Shown piece by piece: positions 3,438 through 25,057 of a stretch of DNA of 64,000 nt. The notes beneath the pieces were generated by a model. That model had not been told where the DNA came from. It ran no database searches and saw nothing but the letters and a program-made list of their open reading frames with translations. Positions within the stretch are counted from its first letter, which is position 1. The number at the start of each line of letters is the position of its first letter. This DNA comes from Lysinibacillus parviboronicapiens (GTDB lineage: Bacteria; Bacillota; Bacilli; Bacillales_A; Planococcaceae): assembly GCF_003049575.1 (NCBI RefSeq), contig NZ_PYWI01000013.1:1-64000 (forward strand), read 5' to 3'. Position numbers and translations under genes: made by a program.

Positions 3438-3590
3438 TTATATCTTCAAGACTGCATCAAACTCCGCCCTATCGGTTACTAGTACATGCCAGTGCTCTTC
3501 GGTATCTAATGTTCCTAAGATACTTACTCACCCGTAAACTAGTCCATTGTTATTTGTATGGCTGTTTGATACAGTATTCAAGGCATAATA
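3438..3590 (-). pseudogene. Possible gene-tail remnant with in-frame stop
   Basis: The minus-strand reading LGTLDTEEHWHVLVTDRAEF...VLKI stop (stop at 3438-3440) looks protein-like. It continues upstream through one TGA (3528-3530) into YALNTVSNSHTNNNG. No start is visible. It could be chance, and I give it only as a possible remnant of a phage gene. Confidence 0.22.
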
Positions 3591-3616
3591 AAAAGCCACA
3601 CCTGGTTAGGTGTGAC
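3588..3616 (-). terminator. Terminator, minus strand
   Basis: Read leftward: GTCACACC, six-base loop, GGTGTGGC, then TTTTTATT. It fits termination of transcripts from the 3772-4179 regulator gene. Confidence 0.65.
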
Positions 3617-3771
3617 TCGTTGCTTGTTTGCGAAACACACGTACAAGCGAACGTGGTTATTATTGTAAGGCAATTTAGTGTACGCATTTCCGTGCGCTTT
3701 TTGATACTACTATCATATAACGGTTTTTCAATAGTTTCAGCCTCTACTTAGTAAGGTACTATTTTAATACC

Positions 3772-4179
3772 TTACTTTGATGAAACTTTTTCAGCATACT
3801 CCATCATACGCATGATGTTTGCGTGCTTAATCTTGATGTAATTCGTACTGTAATTTAATTCGTTAGCAATTGTTTCGAGCGTCTTGCCTTCCACATGCTT
3901 ACGATAAAGGATTTTATATTCAAGCCCATTAAATGTACAAATCAGCTTCTTTAAATCATGTAGGTCGTTCATTTTATGAGCCAATTCATATTCGATTGCT
4001 TCTATTTTTTCTTCTACATTCGCCCCGAGTGACTTGGCTTCTAACTTAAACATACCTAAGTCATTTACGTTCTCCCAACGGTTTAATTCATGTTTGGTTT
4101 TAGTAAGGTTGAATTCAAGGTATGCTATTTCTTCCTCGAGTTTACGATAATCCTTCAACCATTCGTACATGTGCAGCAC
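3772..4179 (-). CDS. Phage-type sigma-like HTH regulator (RinA/ArpU-like)
   Basis: A 135-residue protein with two parts. Residues about 5-75 are an acidic/basic heptad-rich coiled coil. Residues 85-125 form a sigma-70 region-4-like helix-turn-helix (LYRKHVEGKTLETIANELNYS...YIKIKHANIMRMM). This architecture is typical of late-gene transcription activators in Gram-positive prophages (RinA/ArpU families). It suggests that the accessory region is derived from a prophage or similar element. No other late phage genes are nearby, so it is an isolated survivor. The family name is inferred from architecture only. Confidence 0.6.
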   Translation of the reverse strand: MLHMYEWLKDYRKLEEEIAYLEFNLTKTKHELNRWENVNDLGMFKLEAKSLGANVEEKIEAIEYELAHKMNDLHDLKKLICTFNGLEYKILYRKHVEGKTLETIANELNYSTNYIKIKHANIMRMMEYAEKVSSK

Positions 4180-4318
4180 CTACCTTTTTTAATCTTTATA
4201 TAATTCTCAATAATTACCTGCAAAATAATGACTTCTTTATTTGAATCTCCTAATATTTCCAAAAGAAATATTTTGAATTTATTGAAATTTCCTGTAATTT
4301 ATGTTAAAACTTAAACTA

Positions 4319-4716
4319 CTAGGGGATTTAACTAGACTGGAGGAATAATAATGACAAAAAAGATTAATAGTCGTATTTTTGGTTTTAGTTTACTATCAGC
4401 TTTACTTCTTTCTTTTTTCATCTATCCATCTGGTAATGTTTCAGCAGCACAAGAGAGTATTATCCAAAGCTCTAATACAAGTGAGGGAAATATCAGTCCT
4501 CTAGCAATAAGAGAAATATATGTCACTAAATACACTACAACTTCATCGTTCCCACCAGGGCAAAAGTATTTCACTCATAGAGATGGAGATTTTCTTTACT
4601 CAGGTACACTAACTCTTTTTGAATATGTGCACGATCCTGATGCAGGATTATACTTTGCAACATATAAAGGCTGGCTTAAAATTCAGTAAAAAGGCATAAT
4701 AATTTAAATCCCCTAG
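4319..4716. repeat. Perfect 13-bp inverted repeats bracketing a secreted-protein gene
   Basis: CTAGGGGATTTAA at 4319-4331 and its exact reverse complement at 4704-4716 enclose the 4351-4689 gene with its SD. The right copy is followed by a run of seven T. The unit sits beside stem-loop repeat copy 1, whose expected downstream gene is missing. This suggests either an inserted cassette or a transcript whose ends can pair. Confidence 0.45.
4351..4689 (+). CDS. Secreted protein of unknown function, 112 aa
   Basis: ATG at 4351 follows GGAGGAATAATA. Residues 1-33 form a signal peptide (KK, long hydrophobic core, cleavage near VSAA). The mature part of about 79 residues is aromatic-rich (YVTKYTTTSSFPPGQKYF, GDFLYSGTLTLFEYV) with many tyrosines and few charges, so a small beta protein is likely. 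No family is recognised. The gene is bracketed by perfect 13-bp inverted repeats. Confidence 0.65.
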   Translation: MTKKINSRIFGFSLLSALLLSFFIYPSGNVSAAQESIIQSSNTSEGNISPLAIREIYVTKYTTTSSFPPGQKYFTHRDGDFLYSGTLTLFEYVHDPDAGLYFATYKGWLKIQ

Positions 4717-4744
4717 TGTTTTTTTAATTAGCTCGTCACTTCTG

Positions 4745-4784
4745 CTGCACAATATCTTTCAGACACGATCCTCAAATTGTTCAG
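4745..4784 (-). repeat. Stem-loop repeat, copy 1 (full)
   Basis: Arms CTGCACAAT and ATTGTTCAG (one mismatch) around the conserved core TCTTTC.GACACGATCCTC. No minus-strand gene follows it; the inverted-repeat-bounded unit lies there instead. Confidence 0.8.
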
Positions 4785-4884
4785 TAATTAAACCCATTTC
4801 CGAATAATTCCTAGTTATCCAAAAATCATTTAACCCCAATAACCGTTACGTTTAGCGTTACATGCTGTCTTGATGTATTTAAAA

Positions 4885-5010
4885 CTATATATCCTTATTC
4901 CTCTTTTTTCTTTTTATATCCCATATATCTAATTTAACGAATACATAGCATAAAATCGCACAAATAAGAATAGCGCCGCCCATAAATACAAAAAACCATA
5001 TCCATCCCAT
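4885..5010 (-). CDS. Small membrane protein, 41 aa
   Basis: ATG at 5010 opens a 41-codon frame. One hydrophobic span (residues 3-26, WIWFFVFMGGAILICAIL) is followed by a basic tail (DIKRKKRNKD). GGAGGG lies 13 bases upstream. A TTG start at 5031, giving a 7-residue extension, is an alternative. A degenerate copy of the stem-loop repeat lies immediately upstream, as for the other small minus-strand genes of this region. The function is unknown. Confidence 0.5.
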   Translation of the reverse strand: MGWIWFFVFMGGAILICAILCYVFVKLDIWDIKRKKRNKDI

Positions 5011-5028
5011 AATTTTCTCGTTGCCCTC

Positions 5029-5059
5029 CAATCTCTTTTGGATCTTTAAATTATTCAGT
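5029..5059 (-). repeat. Stem-loop repeat, copy 2 (degenerate)
   Basis: CAATCTCTTTTGGATCTTTAAATTATTCAG aligns with the core and right arm of the family. It lies directly upstream of the SD of the 41-aa gene. Confidence 0.55.
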
Positions 5060-5155
5060 AATTTTTCAATCTAAACATTTTTTCTTTCCCTACTGCTTTA
5101 ATGCATATTTTCTTTCATATTGCTAAGGATTATACTTATCGCTCAACAACAGGCT

Positions 5156-5293
5156 TTTTTTATCTATTCAAGGCAATTCACTATACAAACATAGCTATAA
5201 CTTCATATTAATAATAGTGTAAAGCTAATTTAGCCTTACAAGATATCAAGATCACTCCTTTCTTGAACAATGGGTCACTCCCACACGTGACCC
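5156..5293 (-). repeat. Diverged ~135-bp duplicated unit, copy 1
   Basis: Contains a GGGTCAC...GTGACCC hairpin (5272-5293). Read leftward, this is followed by an SD-like AAAGGAG, a GCTAA/TTAGC hairpin and the conserved stretches TTTGTATAG and ATTGCCTT. It is homologous to 5335-5468. No conserved protein frame was found between the two copies. Confidence 0.55.
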
Positions 5294-5300
5294 TTGTTTA

Positions 5301-5330
5301 CCGTAGTGTGTAATAACGCTGCGGTTTTTT
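5301..5330 (+). terminator. Terminator-like hairpin between the duplicated units
   Basis: CCGTAGTG, eight-base loop, CGCTGCGG (two G-T pairs), then six T. Confidence 0.5.
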
Positions 5331-5334
5331 ACTT

Positions 5335-5468
5335 TTTAATCTATTTCAAAGGCAATGAACTATACAAACCTAGTTATCCAATCATATAAATAGTAGTGTT
5401 AAGCTAATTTCGCTTAGCTTGGCACCTCCTGAATTGTTAGTTCTGGGTCACTTTCCTACGAGTGACCC
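5335..5468 (-). repeat. Diverged ~135-bp duplicated unit, copy 2
   Basis: Same layout as 5156-5293: GGGTCACT...AGTGACCC (5445-5468), an SD-like CAGGAGG, then a perfect AAGCTAA/TTAGCTT hairpin with a GCGAAA loop, TTTGTATAG and ATTGCCTTTGAAATAG. Confidence 0.55.
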
Positions 5469-5513
5469 TATAATATTTGTTTAGTAATCCCATTTGTCTC
5501 TTAGAAATTCTTT

Positions 5514-5630
5514 TCATACAGTTGGAATGGTATTAAACCCCATTACATATATTAGTTTCGGGATAGCTACTTTTACATCGCCCCAGACTGTAATTGCCTT
5601 TTGCTAGCCCACCATTCCCAACCCAAGCAT
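5514..5630 (-). pseudogene. Small gene remnant with an in-frame stop
   Basis: ATG at 5630, with SD AGGAGAGGAAG directly after half-repeat copy 3, reads MLGLGMVG, then TAG (5604-5606), then QKAITVWGDVKVAIPKLI and on to TGA at 5514. The start context and the protein-like second part suggest a short gene inactivated by one nonsense mutation. The family is unknown. Confidence 0.3.
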
Positions 5631-5639
5631 CTTCCTCTC

Positions 5640-5656
5640 CTGCACAATATCTTTCG
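5640..5656 (-). repeat. Stem-loop repeat, copy 3 (half)
   Basis: CTGCACAATATCTTTCG matches the left arm and part of the core. It ends 9 bases before a start codon, with an SD between. Confidence 0.6.
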
Positions 5657-5661
5657 ATTGC

Positions 5662-5846
5662 TTAATATGGACTTATAATGCCAAACACCACATACCCTTC
5701 TTTTTGTTCATAATTCTTAACGTAAGTAATAACTCTTTCAGTCCATCGTCCTGTCATTTTTTCTCCATCAAATTCATTTAAAAACACAATGTCTTCGTTT
5801 CGAATGCTGCACGTCTCTCGCTAAATCCTTTTAGGAATTCTCTCAT
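5662..5846 (-). pseudogene. DUF3850/ASCH-like protein remnant
   Basis: ATG at 5846 (SD GAAGGGTG) opens MREFLKGFSERRAAFETKT. After a frame change near 5785 the text EDIVFLNEFDGEKMTGRW...VITYVKN...KEGYVVFGI runs to TAA at 5662. The FETK..., TGR and EGYVV.GI signatures are those of DUF3850, a PUA/ASCH-like RNA-binding domain frequent in phages. The middle of the domain is missing and the frames do not join, so it is a decayed copy. A stem-loop repeat lies just upstream. Confidence 0.5.
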
Positions 5847-5862
5847 CCTATCACCCTTCTTT

Positions 5863-5893
5863 CTGTTCATTTTCTTTCTGACACGAATTTCAT
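5863..5893 (-). repeat. Stem-loop repeat, copy 4
   Basis: CTGTTCATTTTCTTTCTGAC followed by ACGA keeps the left part and core, and the right arm is degenerate. It ends 16 bases before the start of the DUF3850 remnant. Confidence 0.65.
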
Positions 5894-5898
5894 TATGC

Positions 5899-6246
5899 CT
5901 AGTTAACCCAATCAACTAAGCCGCGATTTATTAACTCGTCGCACAAATTTCGTAATTGTTGTTCTGTGTTACCTTCATCGTTGAATCCGATGCGATAAAA
6001 AGCATCTCCCATTTCCCACAATTCAGGACCTCTTGTTAAAAATTGCGACATAATTAAATCGCAAATACCCTCTCCGTTACTATAAACTTCGATTTTTGTA
6101 GAAAATCTAAAAGTGTCAGGCACGTCCATTACAATAGTATTTTTTTGAATAAAGCCGTCACCTTCTTTAAAAGCTCCACCATTTACGCTTAAACCTTCAA
6201 AATCAGTGATATTAGTTTTTTCCTTAAATCTTAAAATTTTTGTCAA
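5899..6246 (-). CDS. Hypothetical phage-like protein, 115 aa
   Basis: Reads from TTG at 6246 behind AAAGGAG with 9-base spacing (no better ATG exists) to TAG at 5899. It is a soluble alpha/beta protein, MTKILRFKEKTNI... to ...LCDELINRGLVDWVN, with no recognised motif. The size, single-gene setting and stem-loop repeats on both sides fit the series of small, probably phage-derived genes here. The frame is intact. Confidence 0.6.
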   Translation of the reverse strand: MTKILRFKEKTNITDFEGLSVNGGAFKEGDGFIQKNTIVMDVPDTFRFSTKIEVYSNGEGICDLIMSQFLTRGPELWEMGDAFYRIGFNDEGNTEQQLRNLCDELINRGLVDWVN

Positions 6247-6263
6247 TTTCCATTTCTCCTTTA

Positions 6264-6304
6264 CTCAACATAATGATTCTGAAACGAATACTCATATTGT
6301 GCAG
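6264..6304 (-). repeat. Stem-loop repeat, copy 5
   Basis: A diverged copy with arms CTCAACATAAT / ATATTGTGCAG around ATTCTGAAACGAATACTC. It ends 17 bases before the TTG start of the 115-aa gene, with AAAGGAG in between. Confidence 0.6.
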
Positions 6305-6390
6305 TAAATGAATCCATTCATAGTTCTAAAAAATTCCTAATTATGTTATTCTTTTGTAATACATCATTCCAAATATTGGGAGGTATCAGA

Positions 6391-6522
6391 ATGGCCCTAA
6401 AGATTGTTAAAACTCTTTTATCTATTGTTATAGTGTTCTTGTATTATTTGGGATTTTGGACAGAAACCTTCACTTTGAAAATTGTTTTATTCTTTCTTAT
6501 GGTCATCTTTATTTTGAAGTAG
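6391..6522 (+). CDS. Small hydrophobic membrane protein, 43 aa
   Basis: ATG at 6391 is preceded by GGGAGG at good spacing. The peptide is almost entirely hydrophobic, with two possible spans (residues 4-20 and 29-42) separated by FWTETFT and a lysine at the C-terminus. It is the only plus-strand gene between repeat copies 5 and 6. No family is recognised. Confidence 0.5.
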   Translation: MALKIVKTLLSIVIVFLYYLGFWTETFTLKIVLFFLMVIFILK

Positions 6523-6570
6523 GTGTTGAAACTGGTAAGAAGCAAAAGAACAGCATTTAATGTGATAATT

Positions 6571-6588
6571 CTGCACAAAATCTTTCAG
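6571..6588 (-). repeat. Stem-loop repeat, copy 6 (half)
   Basis: CTGCACAAAATCTTTCAG abuts the stop codon of the neighbouring gene. The right half is absent. Confidence 0.6.
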
Positions 6589-6963
6589 TTAAATATCTGC
6601 CTTTTCTCCTAACAGGTGCATTTGTGTTTCCTTTTCTAAATATTCATACTGACGTTCACCAAGTAAAAATTCTGCATGATTTTTAAATGCTTCTAATTCA
6701 TGCACTTGATTATTTGCTTGTAGTAATTCATATTGTAGTTCTTTAATTTTTTCTGCCTGCTTGATAAGGGAATGGAAATCAATCTGTTCTACTTTTAAAT
6801 TATTTGGTTGACCTGTACCACCCCAAAACATTTCTCCTGAGCCTAGAATGTAACATTCACAAATGCCTTTATCATTACGGTACTCGCTTTTAAAGCCGTA
6901 GGTTTCACCACGTTTAAATAATGTACCAGGCTCTAATTCACTTAATTTAATTTGTTCTGGCAT
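6589..6963 (-). CDS. Hypothetical phage-like protein with C-terminal coiled coil, 124 aa
   Basis: The ATG at 6963 has GAAGGGG at 7-base spacing and is preferred over the one at 6969. Residues 1-55 are a beta-rich region (LSELEPGTLFKRGE, ECYILGSGEMFWGG). Residues 60-124 are a heptad-rich helix (LIKQAEKIKELQYELLQANN). It resembles small accessory proteins of Gram-positive phages by composition only. A stem-loop repeat sits directly upstream and a half copy touches the stop. Confidence 0.6.
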   Translation of the reverse strand: MPEQIKLSELEPGTLFKRGETYGFKSEYRNDKGICECYILGSGEMFWGGTGQPNNLKVEQIDFHSLIKQAEKIKELQYELLQANNQVHELEAFKNHAEFLLGERQYEYLEKETQMHLLGEKADI

Positions 6964-6977
6964 TGTCATTCCCCTTC

Positions 6978-7015
6978 CTGAATAGAATTTATCGATTAAT
7001 CCTCAAATTGTGAAG
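6978..7015 (-). repeat. Stem-loop repeat, copy 7 (diverged)
   Basis: CTGAATAG...CGATTAATCCTCAAATTGTGAAG keeps the core and right half. It ends 14 bases before the start codon at 6963. Confidence 0.6.
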
Positions 7016-7172
7016 TAATTTAAAGCCCCTTAAATTTAAAATGTAGAATATATTCAGTCCTTTGGATGAATGATAAAACAATTAAATTTTGTAATATTAA
7101 CATTGGTAACACAAATCATTTCAACTCGTTATCACTTTGATGTAACTATTTTTTATCTATGGAGGCTTGAAA

Positions 7173-7553
7173 ATGGAAATTAATATGCGTTTAGAATTGT
7201 TCGTACAAAATTTGAAAAGGTCTGTTGACTTTTATAAAAATGTAATTCAATTAGAGTTATATTCTCAAAATGAAACTAGTGCTAGATTTAAATCGAAAAA
7301 TCTTAATGTACTTTTAACGCAACAAAGTATCCTTTCAAACGACCATTATTTCAGCAATATTAATACCTCTCGAAAAGGAATGGGGGTAGAGATAATCATT
7401 ATTGTTCCTGATATTCAAAGCTTTCATCAACGTGTATGCGAGATGCAAATTGAATTAGAATCCCAACTAAAACAGCAAGAATGGGGCCTGAAAGATTTTC
7501 GTTTGGTCGATCCAGATGGATATTATTTAAGAATCTCTTCACCCCCTAAATGA
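7173..7553 (+). CDS. VOC-family (glyoxalase/bleomycin-resistance fold) protein
   Basis: A 126-residue single VOC domain. It opens with the beta-alpha unit LELFVQNLKRSVDFYKNVI (residues 6-24) and ends with the diagnostic DFRLVDPDGYYLRIS strand pair (about 108-123). VOC proteins act as metal-dependent isomerases, dioxygenases or drug-sequestering dimers, and the ligand here is unknown. The ATG at 7173 has GGAGG at 7 bases; the TTG at 7167 is too close. It is a plus-strand gene set among minus-strand repeat-associated genes, so it is probably a separate acquisition. Confidence 0.8.
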   Translation: MEINMRLELFVQNLKRSVDFYKNVIQLELYSQNETSARFKSKNLNVLLTQQSILSNDHYFSNINTSRKGMGVEIIIIVPDIQSFHQRVCEMQIELESQLKQQEWGLKDFRLVDPDGYYLRISSPPK

Positions 7554-7600
7554 ACACTCGGTTTTATTTACTCTTTTTATAAATGATTTAACCTTTCTTC

Positions 7601-7628
7601 AAGGATGATAATTCTAACTATCATCCTT
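7601..7628. terminator. Bidirectional hairpin after the VOC gene
   Basis: A perfect 10-bp stem AAGGATGATA / TATCATCCTT with an eight-base loop. The T run is short on both sides. It lies between convergent frames. Confidence 0.5.
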
Positions 7629-7784
7629 TGTGACTATTGCTACGCTCTTTGGACGTACTATACACAATAGTATTTTCGAAAAGTCTTTTGCGCATGAACG
7701 GCAAATATGTCTACTTGCTAAATGTGTATGAAAGAATGTCGGCATATCTGAACTTACTTCATTAAAGCTACTCTTGCTGCACAT
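7614..7784 (-). CDS. Possible small CxxC protein or remnant, 56 aa
   Basis: The frame from ATG at 7784 to TAG at 7614 contains HTHLASRHICRSCAKDFSK, a zinc-ribbon-like stretch. The ATG lies inside half-repeat copy 8 and has no proper SD. The expected start after the repeat (ATG at about 7759) is immediately out of frame. It may therefore be a 5'-damaged gene. Confidence 0.3.
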   Translation of the reverse strand: MCSKSSFNEVSSDMPTFFHTHLASRHICRSCAKDFSKILLCIVRPKSVAIVTKDDS

Positions 7785-7793
7785 TTTCTTTCT
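7777..7793 (-). repeat. Stem-loop repeat, copy 8 (half)
   Basis: CTGCACATTTTCTTTCT is the left arm and start of the core, overlapping the stop of the next gene. Confidence 0.6.
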
Positions 7794-7956
7794 AGTGCTT
7801 TGAAATATTTATTATTTCTTTTTTGTACTCGCTTGTGCGAGAAAACTCTGTTTCACAATCACCACATCTAACAAGAAAGTCTACTTCATAACCACCTGTG
7901 TCTGACTTTTTCCCTGTGGCATTAGCTAAAACAATTGTTTTATGTTCACACTTCAT
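7792..7956 (-). CDS. Small zinc-finger-like protein, 54 aa
   Basis: From ATG at 7956 the peptide carries MKCEH near the start and CGDCETEF near residues 38-45. This gives a C-x-x-H/CxxC set that could bind one zinc. GGTGG and GGAAGG lie upstream, 8-14 bases from the ATG. A TTG at 7980 would start inside the repeat and is unlikely. The gene lies between repeat copy 9 (5' side) and half copy 8 (3' side). Its role is unknown. Confidence 0.6.
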   Translation of the reverse strand: MKCEHKTIVLANATGKKSDTGGYEVDFLVRCGDCETEFSRTSEYKKEIINISKH

Positions 7957-7972
7957 TTTTCCACCATCCTTC

Positions 7973-8012
7973 CTGAACAATATCTTTCTGACACGATCCT
8001 CAAATTGTTCAG
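7973..8012 (-). repeat. Stem-loop repeat, copy 9 (best conserved)
   Basis: Perfect 9-bp arms CTGAACAAT / ATTGTTCAG enclose TCTTTCTGACACGATCCTC. Compared with copy 1, the left-arm base has changed (C to A) to restore pairing with the right arm. It ends 16 bases before the start codon at 7956. Confidence 0.85.
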
Positions 8013-8063
8013 TATTAAATTTAATTTGTATGTCTACACTCTTTCTTAAAGGAGTGATAGGTT

Positions 8064-8258
8064 ATGACAATTTCACATAAAGAATTCGATAGATTTTGGA
8101 ATGAATATTTAATTGAATTTGAAATAAAAAATAAAGAATTTACTCAGATTCAAAAAGAAACCTTAGAAATTGTTGAAAAAATAATTTCTAATCCTAGCTT
8201 ATATCATAAGGGAATTGTGAATGAAGCAATAAAATTAAAAGAGAATTTAATGCGGTAG
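8064..8258 (+). CDS. Small helical protein, 64 aa
   Basis: ATG at 8064 follows AAAGGAGTGATAGGTT. The sequence is highly charged and almost wholly helical (FDRFWNEYLIEFEIKNKEF...QKETLEIVEKII). It has its own terminator overlapping the stop. It lies between repeat copies 9 and 10 on the opposite strand. No family is recognised. Confidence 0.65.
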   Translation: MTISHKEFDRFWNEYLIEFEIKNKEFTQIQKETLEIVEKIISNPSLYHKGIVNEAIKLKENLMR

Positions 8259-8280
8259 ATTACGATTACCGCATTTTTTT
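8252..8280 (+). terminator. Terminator of the 64-aa gene
   Basis: GCGGTA, nine-base loop, TACCGC, then A and seven T. The stem begins within the last codons. Confidence 0.8.
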
Positions 8281-8320
8281 CTGCACAATGTCTTTCTGAC
8301 ACGATCCTCAAAATGTGCAT
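8281..8320 (-). repeat. Stem-loop repeat, copy 10 (full)
   Basis: Arms TGCACA / TGTGCA around TCTTTCTGACACGATCCTC. It has no minus-strand gene behind it. Confidence 0.8.
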
Positions 8321-8474
8321 TAACTTAACATTTATATAATTTAGTTTTAACCTTGTAATCAAATTCCTTTTACATAAAACATCAAAAATGACGATTAAAT
8401 TTAGTCGATTGTTAGCCTATTGCCCTTTATTCCATATTTCACTCGAATAAAATACTACAAATGGAGGTGAAAAA

Positions 8475-9020
8475 ATGGATAACTGTAGTAACTGTAATAA
8501 ACGTTCCTGTTTATGTGGAAGCCAAATAGGACCATTCACAGCAGTCGATCTCTGTGGAATTACAGGCTCTATTCCTCCTGTAACACCAACAGCATGTAGC
8601 GGTCTTTGCGAATATGGTTATATATATAATCTAGGTCCTGAAACTGTAGCTGTAGAGGCTGATGTTATTTTTGATTCAACAGGTATAGTTACACCTGGAA
8701 TTACGCACATTCCAGGAACCTCTCAAATTGTTGTTACCACACCAGGAATCTACGAGGTTACTTTCAGCGTATCAGGTGTTGAACCTAACCAATTTACACT
8801 ATTTTTAAATGGTGTACCGATTCCAGAATCAGTCTACGGTTCAGGGGCTGGTACTCAACAAAACACAGGTCAGGTAATAATTGCTATACCAGCCGGCGGT
8901 ATTCTTACACTTAGAAATCATACCTCCGCCGCAGCAGTAATCCTTCAAACTTTAGCAGGAGGCACACAAACAAACGTAAATGCTTCTATTATCCTTAAAA
9001 TGTTAAGTCCTATTGTTTAA
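8475..9020 (+). CDS. BclA-C-like spore-surface protein lacking a collagen stalk
   Basis: A 181-residue protein. It has a short cysteine-rich head (NCSNCNKRSCLCGS, residues 3-16) and then a beta-rich domain from about residue 45 to the end. VIFDSTGIVTPGITH...VTTPGIYEVTFSVSG...FTLFLNGVPI, ending LKMLSPIV, matches the TNF/C1q-like C-terminal domain of the exosporium glycoprotein BclA. The usual Gly-X-X collagen repeats are absent. It probably assembles as a trimer on the spore surface. GGAGGTG precedes the ATG. It is monocistronic with its own terminator. Confidence 0.75.
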   Translation: MDNCSNCNKRSCLCGSQIGPFTAVDLCGITGSIPPVTPTACSGLCEYGYIYNLGPETVAVEADVIFDSTGIVTPGITHIPGTSQIVVTTPGIYEVTFSVSGVEPNQFTLFLNGVPIPESVYGSGAGTQQNTGQVIIAIPAGGILTLRNHTSAAAVILQTLAGGTQTNVNASIILKMLSPIV

Positions 9021-9047
9021 AGATAAAATACTCGGTAAAGATAGTTA

Positions 9048-9087
9048 GGAGTAAGTATCCTTTGACCAAGGATTTGCTCCTTTTTTC
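9048..9087 (+). terminator. Terminator of the BclA-like gene
   Basis: GGAGTAAGTATCCTT pairs imperfectly with AAGGATTTGCTCC across a short loop and is followed by six T. Confidence 0.7.
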
Positions 9088-9144
9088 TTTTCAGATTTAT
9101 TCATTTATATCAGGTAATTGATAACCCGTGTTCTCACTCTCTTA

Positions 9145-9160
9145 CTGAACAATATCTTTC
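9145..9160 (-). repeat. Stem-loop repeat, copy 11 (half)
   Basis: CTGAACAATATCTTTC, the left half only. Leftward it is followed by AGAGAGTG and an 11-codon frame. Confidence 0.55.
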
Positions 9161-9270
9161 TTATCAAGACTAAAATCGAAAAAAATTAAATAAATTAATG
9201 GACCAAACATATTTTATATGACTAATATGTTTGGTCTTTATCTATTTAAAATATCGAATCTTAATGTACT

Positions 9271-9560
9271 TTAATAAAGTGTCTGTACTCGTCCCCCTTC
9301 ATTCCAAAGTTCCTCTGCAACATCTCTGTCCGGGAAGTTTGTAACCATGTGATGATGAATATGAACCTTTTTTCCCTCTGCGTTATTAAATTCTGTTACG
9401 TAGATATACTTCAACTCGAATTTTTCGTACTTCTTCTGTTTTTTCAACCAACGCTTTGCTCTATCCCCTTTGCCTTTTCTGGCTTAGGGGATTTTCGTTT
9501 CTCTTTCACCTTTTTCACCTTGCTTTCAATGCCAATTAACGTCGCTACCGTCTCATTTAG
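9271..9560 (-). pseudogene. HUH-type rolling-circle replication protein remnant
   Basis: An open minus-strand stretch reads LNETVATLIGIE...RAKRWLKKQKKYEKF...YIYVTEFNNAEGKKVHIHHHMVTN...VAEELWNEGG to TAA at 9271. The VHIHHHMV segment is an HUH motif (His-hydrophobic-His), and its setting resembles replication-associated endonucleases of phages and small replicons. No start codon or N-terminal region is present (a stop lies at 9561-9563), and the catalytic tyrosine region is lost. It is therefore a fragment. Confidence 0.5.
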
Positions 9561-9572
9561 CTATAAGTCTGA

Positions 9573-9968
9573 ATTATTATTGCCCATAGTCAAAATATAT
9601 GGGGTGTTGTACGGAATGGGAATGTCGGTATTCATGGTCTTAATTATCAACCCTGTATTTCTGTAGAAGATGAAGTGGCAGCACAGATTCAAGCAATTTT
9701 AACTGACGAGAGCATTTCCACTACTTATCGCGCATTGAAACACATGTATTATGCTATGCGTACACAAATTTTCTGGGATGGTAACAAACGAACAGCGCTT
9801 ATTTCAGCAAACTATATCTTGCTACTTAATGGAAATGGCATTCTCCCTATTGAAGAAAAAAAACTAGAACACTGGAACGAACTCTTATCGGAGTTCTACG
9901 AAACTAACGAAGATGAAAAGATTATTGACTGGACATATAACAACTGTATTTTCGGCATTGATTATTAA
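9573..9968 (+). pseudogene. Fic-family AMPylator, N-terminally truncated
   Basis: The frame is open from 9573, but no suitable start occurs before a GTG at 9675. It reads IIIAHSQNIWGVVRNGNV...EVAAQIQAILTDE, then TQIFWDGNKRTALISANYIL near the centre. This matches the Fic motif HPFxxGNGRT, except that the catalytic histidine position is Thr/Gln here and the second glycine is lysine. Fic enzymes transfer AMP to targets and often act as toxins. The missing N-terminus and absent histidine suggest a dead copy. It is abutted head-on by the HUH remnant, marking a recombination junction near 9565. Confidence 0.6.
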
Positions 9969-10042
9969 GTGAAAGAAAAGTTACATCTCTCCTATCTAGG
10001 GAGAGTGGAGTGAAAGATTATTGATTAATTTGCAAATTAATT

Positions 10043-10076
10043 AAAAAAAGAGCAAGATAGAAATCTTGCTCTTTTT
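10043..10076. terminator. Strong bidirectional terminator before the integrase
   Basis: Perfect stem AAAGAGCAAGAT / ATCTTGCTCTTT with loop AGAA and T/A runs on both sides. Confidence 0.85.
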
Positions 10077-10098
10077 CCTTAGAAGAAAGGAGATCTAT

Positions 10099-11239
10099 AT
10101 GAGAGGATCAGTAAGGAAACGCGATAATCGGTGGTATTACTCATTTGAACTACCTACCAGGAACGGCAAACGGAAAAGAATTGAGCGTGTTGGTGGCGAT
10201 ACAAAGCCCGAAGCTGAAAAAGCTTTAACAACCGCGCTCAACGAACTAAACGAAACAGGTCGCTTTTTCGAATCTTCAAAATCGCCCCTGGAGGATTATA
10301 TGTGGTATTGGTTTGCCGAATATGCATTACTCAATTTAAAAGAAAATACACAGGAAAACTATCGCATGGTTATAAAAAAACATATCGCCCCTCCAATAGG
10401 TGACATAGCGCTGCGCAATCTAACACCAACGATATTGCAAACTTGGATCAACGATAAGCGTCCCGAAGGATATTCCGACAAATCTATGTCAATTTTCCGT
10501 TGCGTCATTAACAGTGCTTTACGCCATGCAGTTTATCCGTGGGGTTTATTGAAGGAGAATCCTATGCAATATGTAACTATGCCAAAACGCCAACGTAAAA
10601 AAGTATCTAAAGAAGAATTTAAAATTATAAAGCGCGATGATCTCATTAGAATTATGGAATATTTAAAGTCTGATATGCCACTATATATGCCGTTTCATAT
10701 CGGTTTACATACTGGATTACGTGTGAGCGAGGTTTGCGGCTTATTATGGCGAGGATATTGATCTCGATGAACGCACACTCACGGTCGAGCGTGCAATGGT
10801 AAATTCTAAAGGGGAATGGGTACTAAGTTCAACAAAGACTGCATCCAGCGAGCGAACTATACCGCTCGGTCCAACAATCATTAAATTGTTGAAAGAGCAT
10901 CGCCTTTGGATTAAGAAAAATAAATTATTTTATGGACCACACTATATAGATAGCGAACATGTTTGTGTAAAAGAAAGTGGTGAACCTATTACTCCTAGTA
11001 GCATGAAATATAACACTAACAAATTAAAAAAAGAACTCCAAATTCCATTCAACTTTCACTCGCTGCGTCATACACACGCAACAATGTTGATGGAAAATGG
11101 AGCTAAAATAAAAGACATCCAAGCTCGGTTAGGTCATAGCCGATCTGCTATTACCATAGACACTTATTCGCATCTTACCGAAAAAATGCAAAAAGAATCA
11201 GTCGATATTTTCGAACGAGCATTGGATGACATCAAATAA
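10099..11239 (+). pseudogene. int: Tyrosine site-specific integrase, frameshifted
   Basis: The start ATG at 10099 follows GAAAGGAG. The first part has the arm-binding domain (MRGSVRKRDNRWYYSF), an SAM-like core-binding domain (about residues 65-150) and the first catalytic Arg in HTGLRVSE. After LLW the frame breaks. Dropping the C at 10750 restores EDIDLDERTLTVE, and the second frame ends at 11239 with HSLRH (His, Arg), LGHS (His) and DTYSH (the nucleophile Tyr). All catalytic residues survive, but in two frames. The gene points toward the 3' end of lepA, where phage and ICE integrases usually sit next to their attachment site. Confidence 0.85.
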
Positions 11240-11366: not shown

Positions 11367-13193
11367 CTATTTCGTATCATCCATTTTCAGAACAGCCATG
11401 AATGCTTCTTGAGGAACTTCGACCGAACCAACTTGTTTCATACGTTTCTTACCCGCTTTTTGTTTTTCAAGTAATTTACGTTTACGAGAAATATCCCCAC
11501 CGTAACATTTTGCAAGTACGTTTTTACCCATTGATTTAATTGTTGAACGTGCTACAATTTTTTGACCAATTGCTGCTTGAATTGGTACTTCGAATTGTTG
11601 ACGCGGGATTAATTCTTTTAGTTTTTCTACGATCACTTTACCACGCTCGTAAGCAAAGTCACGGTGAACGATGAAGCTAAGTGCATCTACTTGTTCACCA
11701 TTAAGGAGGATATCCATTTTTACAAGTTTCGATGGTTTGTACCCAATTAATTCATAGTCAAACGATGCATAACCTTTTGTGTTCGATTTTAGGTAATCGA
11801 AGAAATCATAGACAATTTCTGATAATGGCATTTCATAAATGATGCTAACACGTGTAGTATCGATATAATCCATCGTCATGAAATTACCCCGTTTGATTTG
11901 ACAAAGCTCCATAACTGCACCTACATAATCGTTCGGTACCATAATCGTCGCTTTGACATATGGCTCTTCTACACGGTCAATTTTTTGTGGATCTGGCATC
12001 ATTGACGGGTTATCGACCTTCACTGACGAGCCATCTGTCATATTCACATCGTAAATTACAGATGGTGCCGTTGTAATTAGGTCAATATTGAATTCACGCT
12101 CGATACGTTCCTGTATGATTTCCATATGTAAAAGTCCTAAGAATCCACAACGGAAACCGAAGCCAAGTGCTTGTGATGTTTCAGGTTCATATTGAAGCGC
12201 AGAATCATTTAACTCTAATTTTTCTAATGCATCACGTAAGTCATTATATTTCGCTGTGTCTATAGGATATAAACCGCAATATACCATTGGATTTAAACGA
12301 CGATAACCAGCTAATGCTTCTGTTGCTGGGCGTTTTGCGAATGTCACTGTATCCCCTACGCGCGTGTCGCCTACATTTTTAATTGACGCTGTTAAATAAC
12401 CAACATCCCCAACAGTTAGTTCTGCTTGTGGTGTGATTTTTGGTGTATGAATTCCGACTTCAATAACTTCGAATTCTGCATCAGTGGCCATCATGCGGAT
12501 TTTATCGCCCGCTTTTACTGTACCATTCATGATACGGATAGAGATGATAACACCTTTATACGCATCATACACTGAGTCGAAAATAAGTGCTTGTAAAGGC
12601 GCATCTGGATCACCAGTTGGTGCTGGTACCTTTTCTACAATCTGTTCTAAAATTTCTTCAATCCCGATACCAGCTTTAGCAGAAGCTAAAACCGCTTCAG
12701 AAGCATCTAGACCAATTACATCTTCTACTTCTTGACGTACACGTTCCGGATCAGCGGCTGGTAAGTCAATTTTATTGATGACTGGTAAAATTTCAAGGTC
12801 ATTATCTAGTGCTAAGTAAACATTTGCGAGTGTTTGCGCTTCGATGCCTTGCGCTGCATCGACGACTAAAATAGCGCCTTCACAAGCGGCTAAACTACGT
12901 GATACTTCATATGTGAAATCGACGTGTCCTGGTGTGTCGATTAGATGAAATGTATACACTTCGCCATTTTTTGCTTCATATTTTAATTGCACTGCATTTA
13001 ATTTAATCGTTATGCCTCGCTCACGTTCTAAATCCATTGAGTCGAGTAGCTGTGCTTTCATTTCACGGGACGTCAGTGATTTCGTTTGCTCTAGAATGCG
13101 GTCAGCAAGCGTTGATTTCCCGTGGTCAATATGTGCGATAATAGAGAAATTTCGAATATTCTCTTGTCTTTTTAAACGTGCTTCTCGGTTCAT
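11367..13193 (-). CDS. lepA: Elongation factor 4 (LepA)
   Basis: A 608-residue translational GTPase that back-translocates or rescues stalled ribosomes. The G motifs are intact: AHIDHGKST (residues about 17-25), RGIT, DTPGH (about 80) and NKID (about 134). It then carries the EF-G-like domains and the LepA-specific C-terminal domain ([20 protein letters not shown]). The ATG at 13193 has AGGAG at 8-base spacing; a GTG three codons earlier is too close. In Bacillus lepA follows spoIIP. Here an acetyltransferase gene and a 950-base gene-poor stretch separate them. It converges with the integrase remnant. Confidence 0.97.
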
Positions 13194-24326: not shown

Positions 24327-24971
24327 TTAATTAACCGTGATTGAATCTTTTAGTTTTTCAAATGTCTTATCGCCTATACCGGTAATCTTTTTTAAATCTT
24401 CTATGGATTTAAAGCTACCGTTTTCCTGCCGATAGGCAATGATACTTTGCGCCTTAGACGGTCCTATTCCAACTAAAGTTGTTAGTGTGGCAGCATCTGC
24501 CTTATTTAAATTTACCTTTCCGTCTTTCACGCCCTCATTCCCTTTAGTTGTTTCAACTGTCGGCATAGCGATAAAACGAGACGGTACTTGTTCTAGTTGC
24601 TCACCCTTTGCAGGTATATAAATGACCATTTCATCTAACACTTTTTGTGCATGATTCATAAACTGTGTATCTGCATCCTGTGTATAGCCACCTGCAAGCT
24701 GGACGGCATCTATGATACGTTGCTCAGGTTTAAGCGCATAAACACCAGGATGTAATACAGCACCTTTTACATCAACAATCACCTGTTGAAAGACCGCTTC
24801 TTGGACAGGCTCTACCGTTTCTGTTTGTTCAGTAAGTTGGATTGTTTCGATGAGCTCTTCTTGGGGAGGTGAAGAGTCAAAACTCGAAAAATAGAAGTAA
24901 CAAAGTCCACTGATGACAAGTATGCCGGGGAGCAACACACTTTTATACTTTTGCCATAAAGATTGGATCAT
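24327..24971 (-). CDS. comEA: Competence DNA receptor ComEA
   Basis: A 214-residue membrane-anchored DNA-binding protein that captures double-stranded DNA and feeds ComEC. One N-terminal span (about residues 12-30) is followed by an acidic linker, an SLBB/oligomerisation domain (VDVKGAVLHPGVYALKP, about 70-135) and two helix-hairpin-helix motifs (LTTLVGIGPSKAQSIIAYR, LKKITGIGDKTFEKLK) at the end. ATG at 24971 is 8 bases after AGAAAGGA. comER, usually divergent here, is not in the window. Confidence 0.95.
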   Translation of the reverse strand: MIQSLWQKYKSVLLPGILVISGLCYFYFSSFDSSPPQEELIETIQLTEQTETVEPVQEAVFQQVIVDVKGAVLHPGVYALKPEQRIIDAVQLAGGYTQDADTQFMNHAQKVLDEMVIYIPAKGEQLEQVPSRFIAMPTVETTKGNEGVKDGKVNLNKADAATLTTLVGIGPSKAQSIIAYRQENGSFKSIEDLKKITGIGDKTFEKLKDSITVN

Positions 24972-25057
24972 AACAAACATCCTTTCTAGTCAAAAGGCAC
25001 ATCATATGGAGCTATCTTTATTATACAATATTCCCTTAAAATTTAAAAAGTATTGTA

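Follow-up and report, generated by a model that had tools for sequence, protein, structure and literature searches.

A short two-part repeat in Lysinibacillus that probably marks the joints between small gene cassettes

A 64,000-nucleotide (nt) stretch of Lysinibacillus parviboronicapiens DNA (contig NZ_PYWI01000013.1, positions 1 to 64,000; hereafter, the window), taken from a 4.75 Mb genome (G000), contains a run of genes interspersed with copies of a short repeat, which we interpret as the probable joint between exchangeable gene cassettes. Its sense consensus is TACTGMACAWWTGAGGA (the left half), a spacer and GAAAGAWWTGTKCAG (the right half). Using a sequence-only repeat model, R2, built from 27 copies with several window copies in the training set, we found 10 copies at E ≤ 0.05 between positions 4741 and 9161 of the full 64,000-nt stretch, all 10 on the minus strand. 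Five are nearly whole (4741-4786, 6259-6306, 6973-7017, 7967-8014 and 8276-8322); the others, at 5635, 5858, 6569, 7772 and 9140, are halves or have diverged. A weak eleventh copy at 5041 (E = 0.22) was kept, and a twelfth candidate at 5097 was dropped (E = 0.44). The original prediction, made from the sequence of the window, had counted at least 11 copies, five of them fairly complete, which agrees with these calls once the weak copy is included, and the common core and arms that it described match the window sequence. The copies are as follows.

4741..4786, minus strand: full putative joint element (left half plus right half, long-spacer type); R2 52.1 bits
5041..5060, minus strand: left half, diverged and weak; R2 9.6 bits, E = 0.22
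5635..5660, minus strand: right half; R2 17.6 bits
5634-5667, minus strand: the preceding copy taken more widely, by eye a short-type element; R1 19.4 bits
5858..5892, minus strand: element without most of the left arm; R2 19.1 bits
6259..6306, minus strand: diverged full element, whose left half is the 3′ boundary of the 59-aa candidate cassette; R2 33.3 bits
6569..6591, minus strand: right half, the 5′ boundary of the 59-aa candidate cassette; R2 13.1 bits
6973..7017, minus strand: diverged full element directly upstream of the 126-aa gene (6589-6969, minus strand); R2 32.9 bits
7772..7795, minus strand: right half; R2 15.9 bits
7967..8014, minus strand: full putative joint element, the best copy in the window; R2 54.6 bits
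8276..8322, minus strand: full putative joint element, with the BclA-like candidate cassette at its left half and the 64-aa one at its right half; R2 48.3 bits
9140..9161, minus strand: right half, the 5′ boundary of the BclA-like candidate cassette; R2 17.0 bits

Full copies span 28-48 bases, with 28 of 43 measuring 40 or 42 bases, and they contain inverted arms of 9-11 bases and about 18 conserved bases in each half; many other copies consist of an isolated left half or an isolated right half. It had been claimed that bases in the arms differ between copies so as to preserve pairing, which was taken to suggest selection for a hairpin. We compared the pairing of the arms to the pairing obtained when right arms were shuffled between copies. 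Among 30 copies (one of 31 rows was removed as misaligned), 194 of 270 cells were Watson-Crick pairs, compared to 193.1 ± 3.5 after shuffling, and among 43 copies called by the sequence-only model, 283 of 387 were paired, compared to 285.0 ± 4.3, in a test whose power is limited because most arm positions are nearly invariant. A opposite G, which does not pair, is the most frequent combination at the fourth position of the arm (15 of 43 copies). Pairing does not exceed the shuffled level and covariation is at chance level, which leaves both claims unsupported; the arms are kept as sequence, without covariation. Within window positions 3500-10500, Rfam returned four matches at E ≤ 1 and none at its gathering score.

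The repeat had also been placed just before the Shine-Dalgarno (SD) sequences of at least six minus-strand genes or remnants, and likened to start-associated phage repeats with a proposed regulatory role. The right half does stand directly before the SD and start of the genes that begin at 6246, 6963 and 7956; the frames that begin at 5010, 5630 and 5846 are very short or broken. Among the 10 window intervals bounded by repeats, four contain a gene read with the repeat, four a gene on the opposite strand and two no gene, so that regulation of start codons falls short as a full account: half of the eight gene-bearing intervals are antisense. We then find the same in 67 intervals between neighboring elements, where the largest open reading frame (ORF) runs with the elements in 24 and against them in 32, and 11 have no ORF of at least 45 aa. 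This rule, which takes the largest ORF per interval, is crude, and at least four of the 32 were misjudged, with annotation or a longer frame reading with the elements (L006 726-1094, L098 5938-6385, L098 16184-17094 and L130 927-1460; L numbers denote loci and G numbers genomes). Gene-bearing intervals are split near half between the two directions, and a repeat ahead of the SD of a small ORF is a property of some sense genes. Several genes in the array direction probably depend on upstream transcription, because they begin right after the right half, without space for a promoter. Several genes against the array direction place a terminator-like stem beside the right half.

The DNA between the elements of the window contains the following blocks and genes.

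6287..6588: candidate cassette with a 59-aa plus-strand gene (6343-6522); also in G026 (L115), 81% over 304 bp
6589..6969, minus strand: 126-aa gene in the same direction as the elements; no element lies upstream of a 71% relative in G029 (L129)
7018..7771: interval between elements with a glyoxalase-like plus-strand gene (7173-7553); PF12681, 4e-10
8042..8323: candidate cassette with a 64-aa plus-strand gene (8064-8258); also in the prophage contig L006, 94% over 284 bp
8305..9160: candidate cassette with a BclA_C-domain plus-strand gene (8475-9020; domain match 4.5e-10); also in G030 (L107) and G026 (L115), 85%

Three of these blocks (6287-6588, 8042-8323 and 8305-9160) recur in other genomes beside different neighbors. 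The block with the 59-aa gene has both ends at elements in the window and one end at an element in L115; the block with the 64-aa gene has one end at an element in both the window and L006, and the DNA past that element is unrelated. The between-genome comparison found no second context for the glyoxalase-like interval. Elsewhere in the genus, a YbaK-like cassette, one among other such cases, is present in three places with different neighbors at 95-97% identity (L090 and L109 in G014, L103 in G021). In the cassette families inspected, aligned boundaries match from about WWTGTKCAG, across the gene, as far as TACTGMACAWWTGAGGA, and diverge beyond these limits; exceptions occur among the DUF3231 cassettes, of which those in L090 and L094 lack a left half at the boundary.

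We quantified this coincidence in two ways. Between genomes, 81 of 854 ends of homology blocks lie at most 10 bp from an element, compared to 21.4 ± 5.6 when elements are placed anywhere and 41.3 ± 7.1 when they are placed in intergenic DNA (300 shuffles each, with maxima of 38 and 66). In pairwise alignments, homology breaks inside the repeat in 14 of 18 pairs. Where the upstream genes are homologous, homology ends after the left half in six of eight pairs, and the next 27 bases match at 7-10 of 27 positions; where the downstream genes are homologous, there is no homology before the right half in eight of 10 pairs, and the 27 bases preceding the last 18 match at 4-13 of 27. The left halves in the six breaking pairs agree at 16.0 of 18 positions, compared to 13.8 among all 72 left halves, a level reached by 0.1% of random draws. 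Therefore, left halves are inherited together with the preceding gene.

The presence of an element also varies among relatives of one gene. For a methyltransferase gene, the element is full in L006, a right half in L130 and, at 91% protein identity, absent from L138, L139 and L131; among the gene's relatives in viral contigs, none of the 47 loci scanned with R2 matched at E ≤ 1 (80 were kept and 32 lay outside the scan; one viral locus, L137, is L006 itself). Judged by eye, a left half comes after an ASCH-like gene in L003 and L121 (R2 does not call the L121 copy), and a short element comes after it in the window, where the left arm of the element at 5634-5667 contains the stop codon of the broken gene. 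The locus L129, which holds the relative of the 126-aa gene, has one weak left-half match elsewhere (E = 0.14). Arrays also contain duplications: a DUF4183 gene pair occurs twice in the L090 island (8044-9096 and 12144-13095), and a cysteine-rich gene occurs twice in L107 (6542-6847 and 7058-7342). The gene left of the L090 array has relatives in 13 of 32 genomes, and the CMD gene was rejected as a flank marker since it sits among elements in L103. The link to gene shuffling that had been drawn from the likeness to phage repeats agrees with these findings: different genes follow the same repeat, and the relatives of one gene occur with and without it.

The orientation of the elements is uniform within arrays. 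In the loci fetched, all 77 secondary matches lie on the strand of their locus's best match (two have E of 0.052 and 0.22, the remainder E ≤ 0.05). A genome-wide scan of the genus (E ≤ 0.01, at most 150 candidates scored per genome) gave 101 matches in 27 of 32 genomes; neighboring pairs within 20 kb were on the same strand in 31 of 31 cases and clusters in 20 of 20, while pairs more than 20 kb apart were on the same strand in 19 cases and on different strands in seven. Twenty further loci contained one opposite-strand match (L283, E = 0.12). According to GC skew, the element strand is the G-rich, leading strand in 47 of 50 loci: in 29 of an initial 30, with L118 as the exception and with some short flanks, down to 1.6 kb, and in 18 of 20 loci with weaker matches, with L283 and L285 as the exceptions. 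By eye, dnaA lies at the contig opening in all five genomes checked, and sampled skew in G009, G010, G021 and G027 agrees with the assumed replication direction. Binomial values overstate the effect, since the genomes are related and hence not independent (L113 and L114, for instance, look orthologous). As a control, 16 non-core integrases among those listed for seven genomes were divided into 10 leading and six lagging (Fisher p = 0.005), a rough comparison in which strands were assigned by hand and the terminus was assumed to lie halfway in four genomes. Orientation is therefore locked to replication, although the genes between elements run the other way in about half of cases, and the sense strand of the element lies on the lagging-strand template.

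The repeat is largely restricted to the genus. Of the 32 genus genomes, R2 matches 20 at E ≤ 1e-3 and 15 when at least 25 bits are required; among the 229 genomes from elsewhere in the family, the corresponding numbers are 10 and none. We judged the matches in the 10 genomes of other genera to be chance, the best of them scoring 23.9 bits. A prophage contig (IMGVR_UViG_2939593269_000003, L006) has five matches, located in the prophage early region, and the L. fusiformis plasmid pHJ.T1 (L098) has 13 at E ≤ 0.05, 12 of them inside two gene blocks; it is the one record taken as real among 11 found by a similarity search of plasmid records. On this plasmid, type I-C cas genes (L098 59-3472) and a putative holin-like toxin gene (24905-25001) flank the repeat-bearing block. 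Chromosomal islands, L090 and L103 among them, contain copies as well, and so do regions that look prophage-like by eye, for example L117. Scanning genome contigs with two sequence patterns gave no match for the first and one for the second, in Lysinibacillus sp. BPa_S21. Pattern scans of IMG/VR found full copies in one contig, L006; the left-half pattern found 36 stretches, and the 35 besides L006 had no R1 match at E ≤ 0.1. Short matches in 35 phage records were judged to be chance on the 20 rows listed. We found no description of this repeat among the open-licence PMC papers that our searches listed.

The genes carried between elements are diverse. Among 51 hand-picked array proteins, at least one of which is matched by each of 34 Pfam families, the 25 families listed include DUF4183 in four proteins, tRNA_edit in three and BclA_C in two, together with one each of GNAT, alpha/beta-hydrolase, glyoxalase, CMD, rubrerythrin, DUF3231, methyltransferase and other domains. 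The same proteins match 23 PHROGs families, mostly methyltransferases, acetyltransferases or nameless families. Tyrosine recombinases are present in all 32 genus genomes, and no genus genome has an integron integrase above the TIGR02249 cut-off, in a search that left the plasmid and the prophage contig outside. Two genus genomes each contain four tandem tyrosine recombinase domains (G015:C1:4471989-4476077 and G019:C11:184638-187725), which are not near the elements listed.

We interpret the repeat, with a probability of about 0.67, as the site where gene cassettes meet in an integron-like, modular system on Lysinibacillus chromosomes, prophages and plasmids. This reading builds on same-strand arrays, blocks that end in the repeat, left halves that accompany the preceding gene, and an orientation tied to replication. 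A cassette would open with a right half, GAAAGAWWTGTKCAG(TA), and close with a left half, TACTGMACAWWTGAGGA; between them would lie, in most cases, a single gene of either orientation, trimmed close to its ribosome-binding site or terminator. A full repeat would then join one cassette's left half to the following cassette's right half. The tight trimming of genes in the array direction would explain why the right half lies near start codons. Cassettes may be gained, lost and reordered by recombination between equally oriented joints, where a protein may bind the conserved arms and exchange may take place between the two halves, with the distinct ends (GAGGA and GAAAG) setting the orientation. 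Because the repeat strand is locked to replication, the data suggest that exchange acts on one of the joint's strands while it is single-stranded at the fork.

Several observations weigh against cassette joints. Homology continues through the element in four of the 18 pairs (L093/L118, L103/L106, L113/L114 and window 8276/L006). The right halves in the eight breaking pairs agree at 13.25 of 18 positions, compared to 12.6 among all 83 right halves (23% of draws), so their co-inheritance with the following gene is not clearly shown. When block ends are counted within 40 bp, 115 are found, compared to 82 ± 10 for intergenic placement, and the highest of 300 shuffles also reached 115. The switch point varies over about model positions 15-37 (by eye), with no single fixed base, which fits homologous or illegitimate exchange better than a strict site-specific enzyme. 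Many copies are halves or decayed; the loci L118, L283 and L285 break the replication rule, although L285 may be a chance match in coding sequence. Among the tyrosine recombinases of the 32 genus genomes, we found none tied to the arrays, and we saw no circle, empty site or live rearrangement.

These same observations bear on the alternatives. The repeats may have another primary role, regulatory or structural, and act as short patches of homology at which RecA or a phage annealing protein creates apparent cassettes, with no dedicated system. We consider this quite possible, if probably not the case: an exchange point that varies inside the element, searches that turned up no dedicated enzyme, right halves without clear co-inheritance and elements in the prophage early region of L006 all fit it, and Pope et al. 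2011 propose the same for their repeats (PMC3203893). However, some 18 conserved bases per half provide little homology, unrelated genes on both strands lie between a right half and a left half, and a replication-locked orientation is no obvious consequence. Another reading takes each cassette for a transposon-like, non-autonomous unit whose two ends differ and which enters as single-stranded DNA beside GAGGA on the lagging-strand template, as in the IS200/IS605 family; IS608 and ISDra2 target the lagging-strand template (PMC6006769), the sense strand of the elements lies on that template in 47 of 50 loci, and the left and right ends here are distinct and joined head to tail. Such a unit is nonetheless unlikely, as we noticed no hairpin within a cassette end, no empty target site was seen, and the passenger genes differ between units.

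Two further accounts give the repeat a role in expression. It is quite unlikely that the elements are operators or promoters, in which a DNA-binding protein encoded by a phage or plasmid recognizes the arms and controls the downstream gene, like MrpR at the repeats of phage SPbeta or in the role proposed for the mycobacteriophage repeats. Arms conserved in sequence without covariation are consistent with a protein that binds DNA, a lone right half lies upstream of open frames in L006, and the SPbeta repeats are a precedent in Bacillus (PMC10516654), but about half of the gene-bearing intervals are antisense, several right halves face a terminator-like stem instead of a start, element length varies from 28 to 48, and the same repeat is found on a prophage contig, a plasmid and chromosomes. 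An RNA hairpin that acts at translation starts is very improbable, and we rejected it: inverted arms of 9-11 bases and right halves near the SD of sense genes are in its favor, yet neither the 30-copy nor the 43-copy set covaries, many genes between repeats are antisense, isolated halves also lie upstream of open frames, and no Rfam family matches at gathering score.

Compared with known systems, cassette joints of this kind resemble those of integrons in their arrays of compact, mostly single-gene cassettes, in having one asymmetric inverted-repeat site per joint, with all sites on one strand (77/77 and 31/31 here), and in their cargo of single GNAT, hydrolase and glyoxalase genes among many unknown ones. 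In sedentary chromosomal integrons, array orientation is likewise tied to replication, and the recombinogenic attC strands lie on the leading-strand template, an orientation comparable to ours (PMC11023631). In contrast, the attC boxes are missing or nearly so here (RYYYAAC in 0 of 43 left ends, GTTRRRY in 2 of 83 right ends); attC is recognized by structure, whereas these arms keep their sequence without covariation; none of the 32 genomes has an integron integrase above the cut-off; short arrays occupy several loci per genome with genes on both strands; and exchange takes place within the site, leaving halves. The start-associated sequences (SAS) and extended SAS (ESAS) of cluster K mycobacteriophages are, similarly, imperfect 17-bp inverted repeats with a variable spacer near translation starts, for which mRNA pairing is poorly supported and a role as recombination targets has been suggested (PMC3203893). 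Their sequence is different, and the 13-bp SAS GGGATAGGAGCCC at the start codon, which the ESAS inverted repeats immediately precede, was not noticed in the boundaries inspected, by eye and without a pattern search. ESAS are described as tied to starts and stable per gene family (PMC3203893), whereas some Lysinibacillus joints face terminator-like stems and the relatives of one gene vary in having an element.

The promoter-stem-loop (PeSL) elements of T4-like phages are also intergenic repeats that mediate gene shuffling (PMC4503421), and the SPbeta repeated element (SPBRE) recurs between the genes of a Bacillus prophage; SPBRE, however, is a 15-bp, MrpR-bound operator in promoter regions, and the available part of its report does not describe it as a cassette boundary (PMC10516654). 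The Lysinibacillus repeat shows no covarying stem and is present on chromosomes and a plasmid as well. The pdif sites are about 28 bp long and alternate in orientation, whereas the Lysinibacillus repeat measures 28-48 bp and does not alternate within 20 kb. The XerC/XerD pdif modules of Acinetobacter plasmids share with it small gene modules bounded by recombination sites (PMC7399989). The ends of miniature inverted-repeat transposable elements and insertion sequences would be terminal repeats with target duplication and free orientation; the orientation of the repeats here is not mixed within arrays.

Other features lie near the window array. A second repeat family, with 80-bp copies at 5155-5234 and 5334-5413 that are 76% alike, is accompanied by GGGTCAC...GTGACCC stems at about 5272-5293 and 5445-5468; it recurs in many of the same loci (L003, L090, L091, L093, L102, L103, L107 and L115), and it overlaps a weak match to RsaF that stays below the gathering score (E = 0.056). 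Judged by eye, a Fic/Doc-like ORF (9675-9968, plus strand) close to the array end lies beside an integrase-like gene (10066-11239, plus strand) that adjoins lepA and is split over two frames. The ORF at 3772-4179 (minus strand) resembles phage ArpU-type regulators by eye and has relatives in L003, L092, L109 and L138.

Integron-type cassette arrays are, to our knowledge, hardly known in Firmicutes. The repeat family differs from integrons, ESAS and PeSL in its site, host group and cargo, and comes without a known enzyme. We tentatively propose, while considering it doubtful in this full form, that it belongs to an undescribed integron-like system of Firmicutes. A site-specific recombinase, which may use DNA that is single-stranded at the fork, would link cassettes at a two-ended site distinct from attC, and would have distributed spore-surface, enzyme and phage genes across the chromosomes, prophages and plasmids of Lysinibacillus. 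If so, a group of spore-formers would have its own gene-shuffling machine, with spore-surface genes among the cargo, and the enzyme that cuts the joints would be a clear target. Even under ordinary recombination, a 30-50-bp seam repeat of fixed orientation would account for the movement of small genes among phage, plasmid and chromosome.

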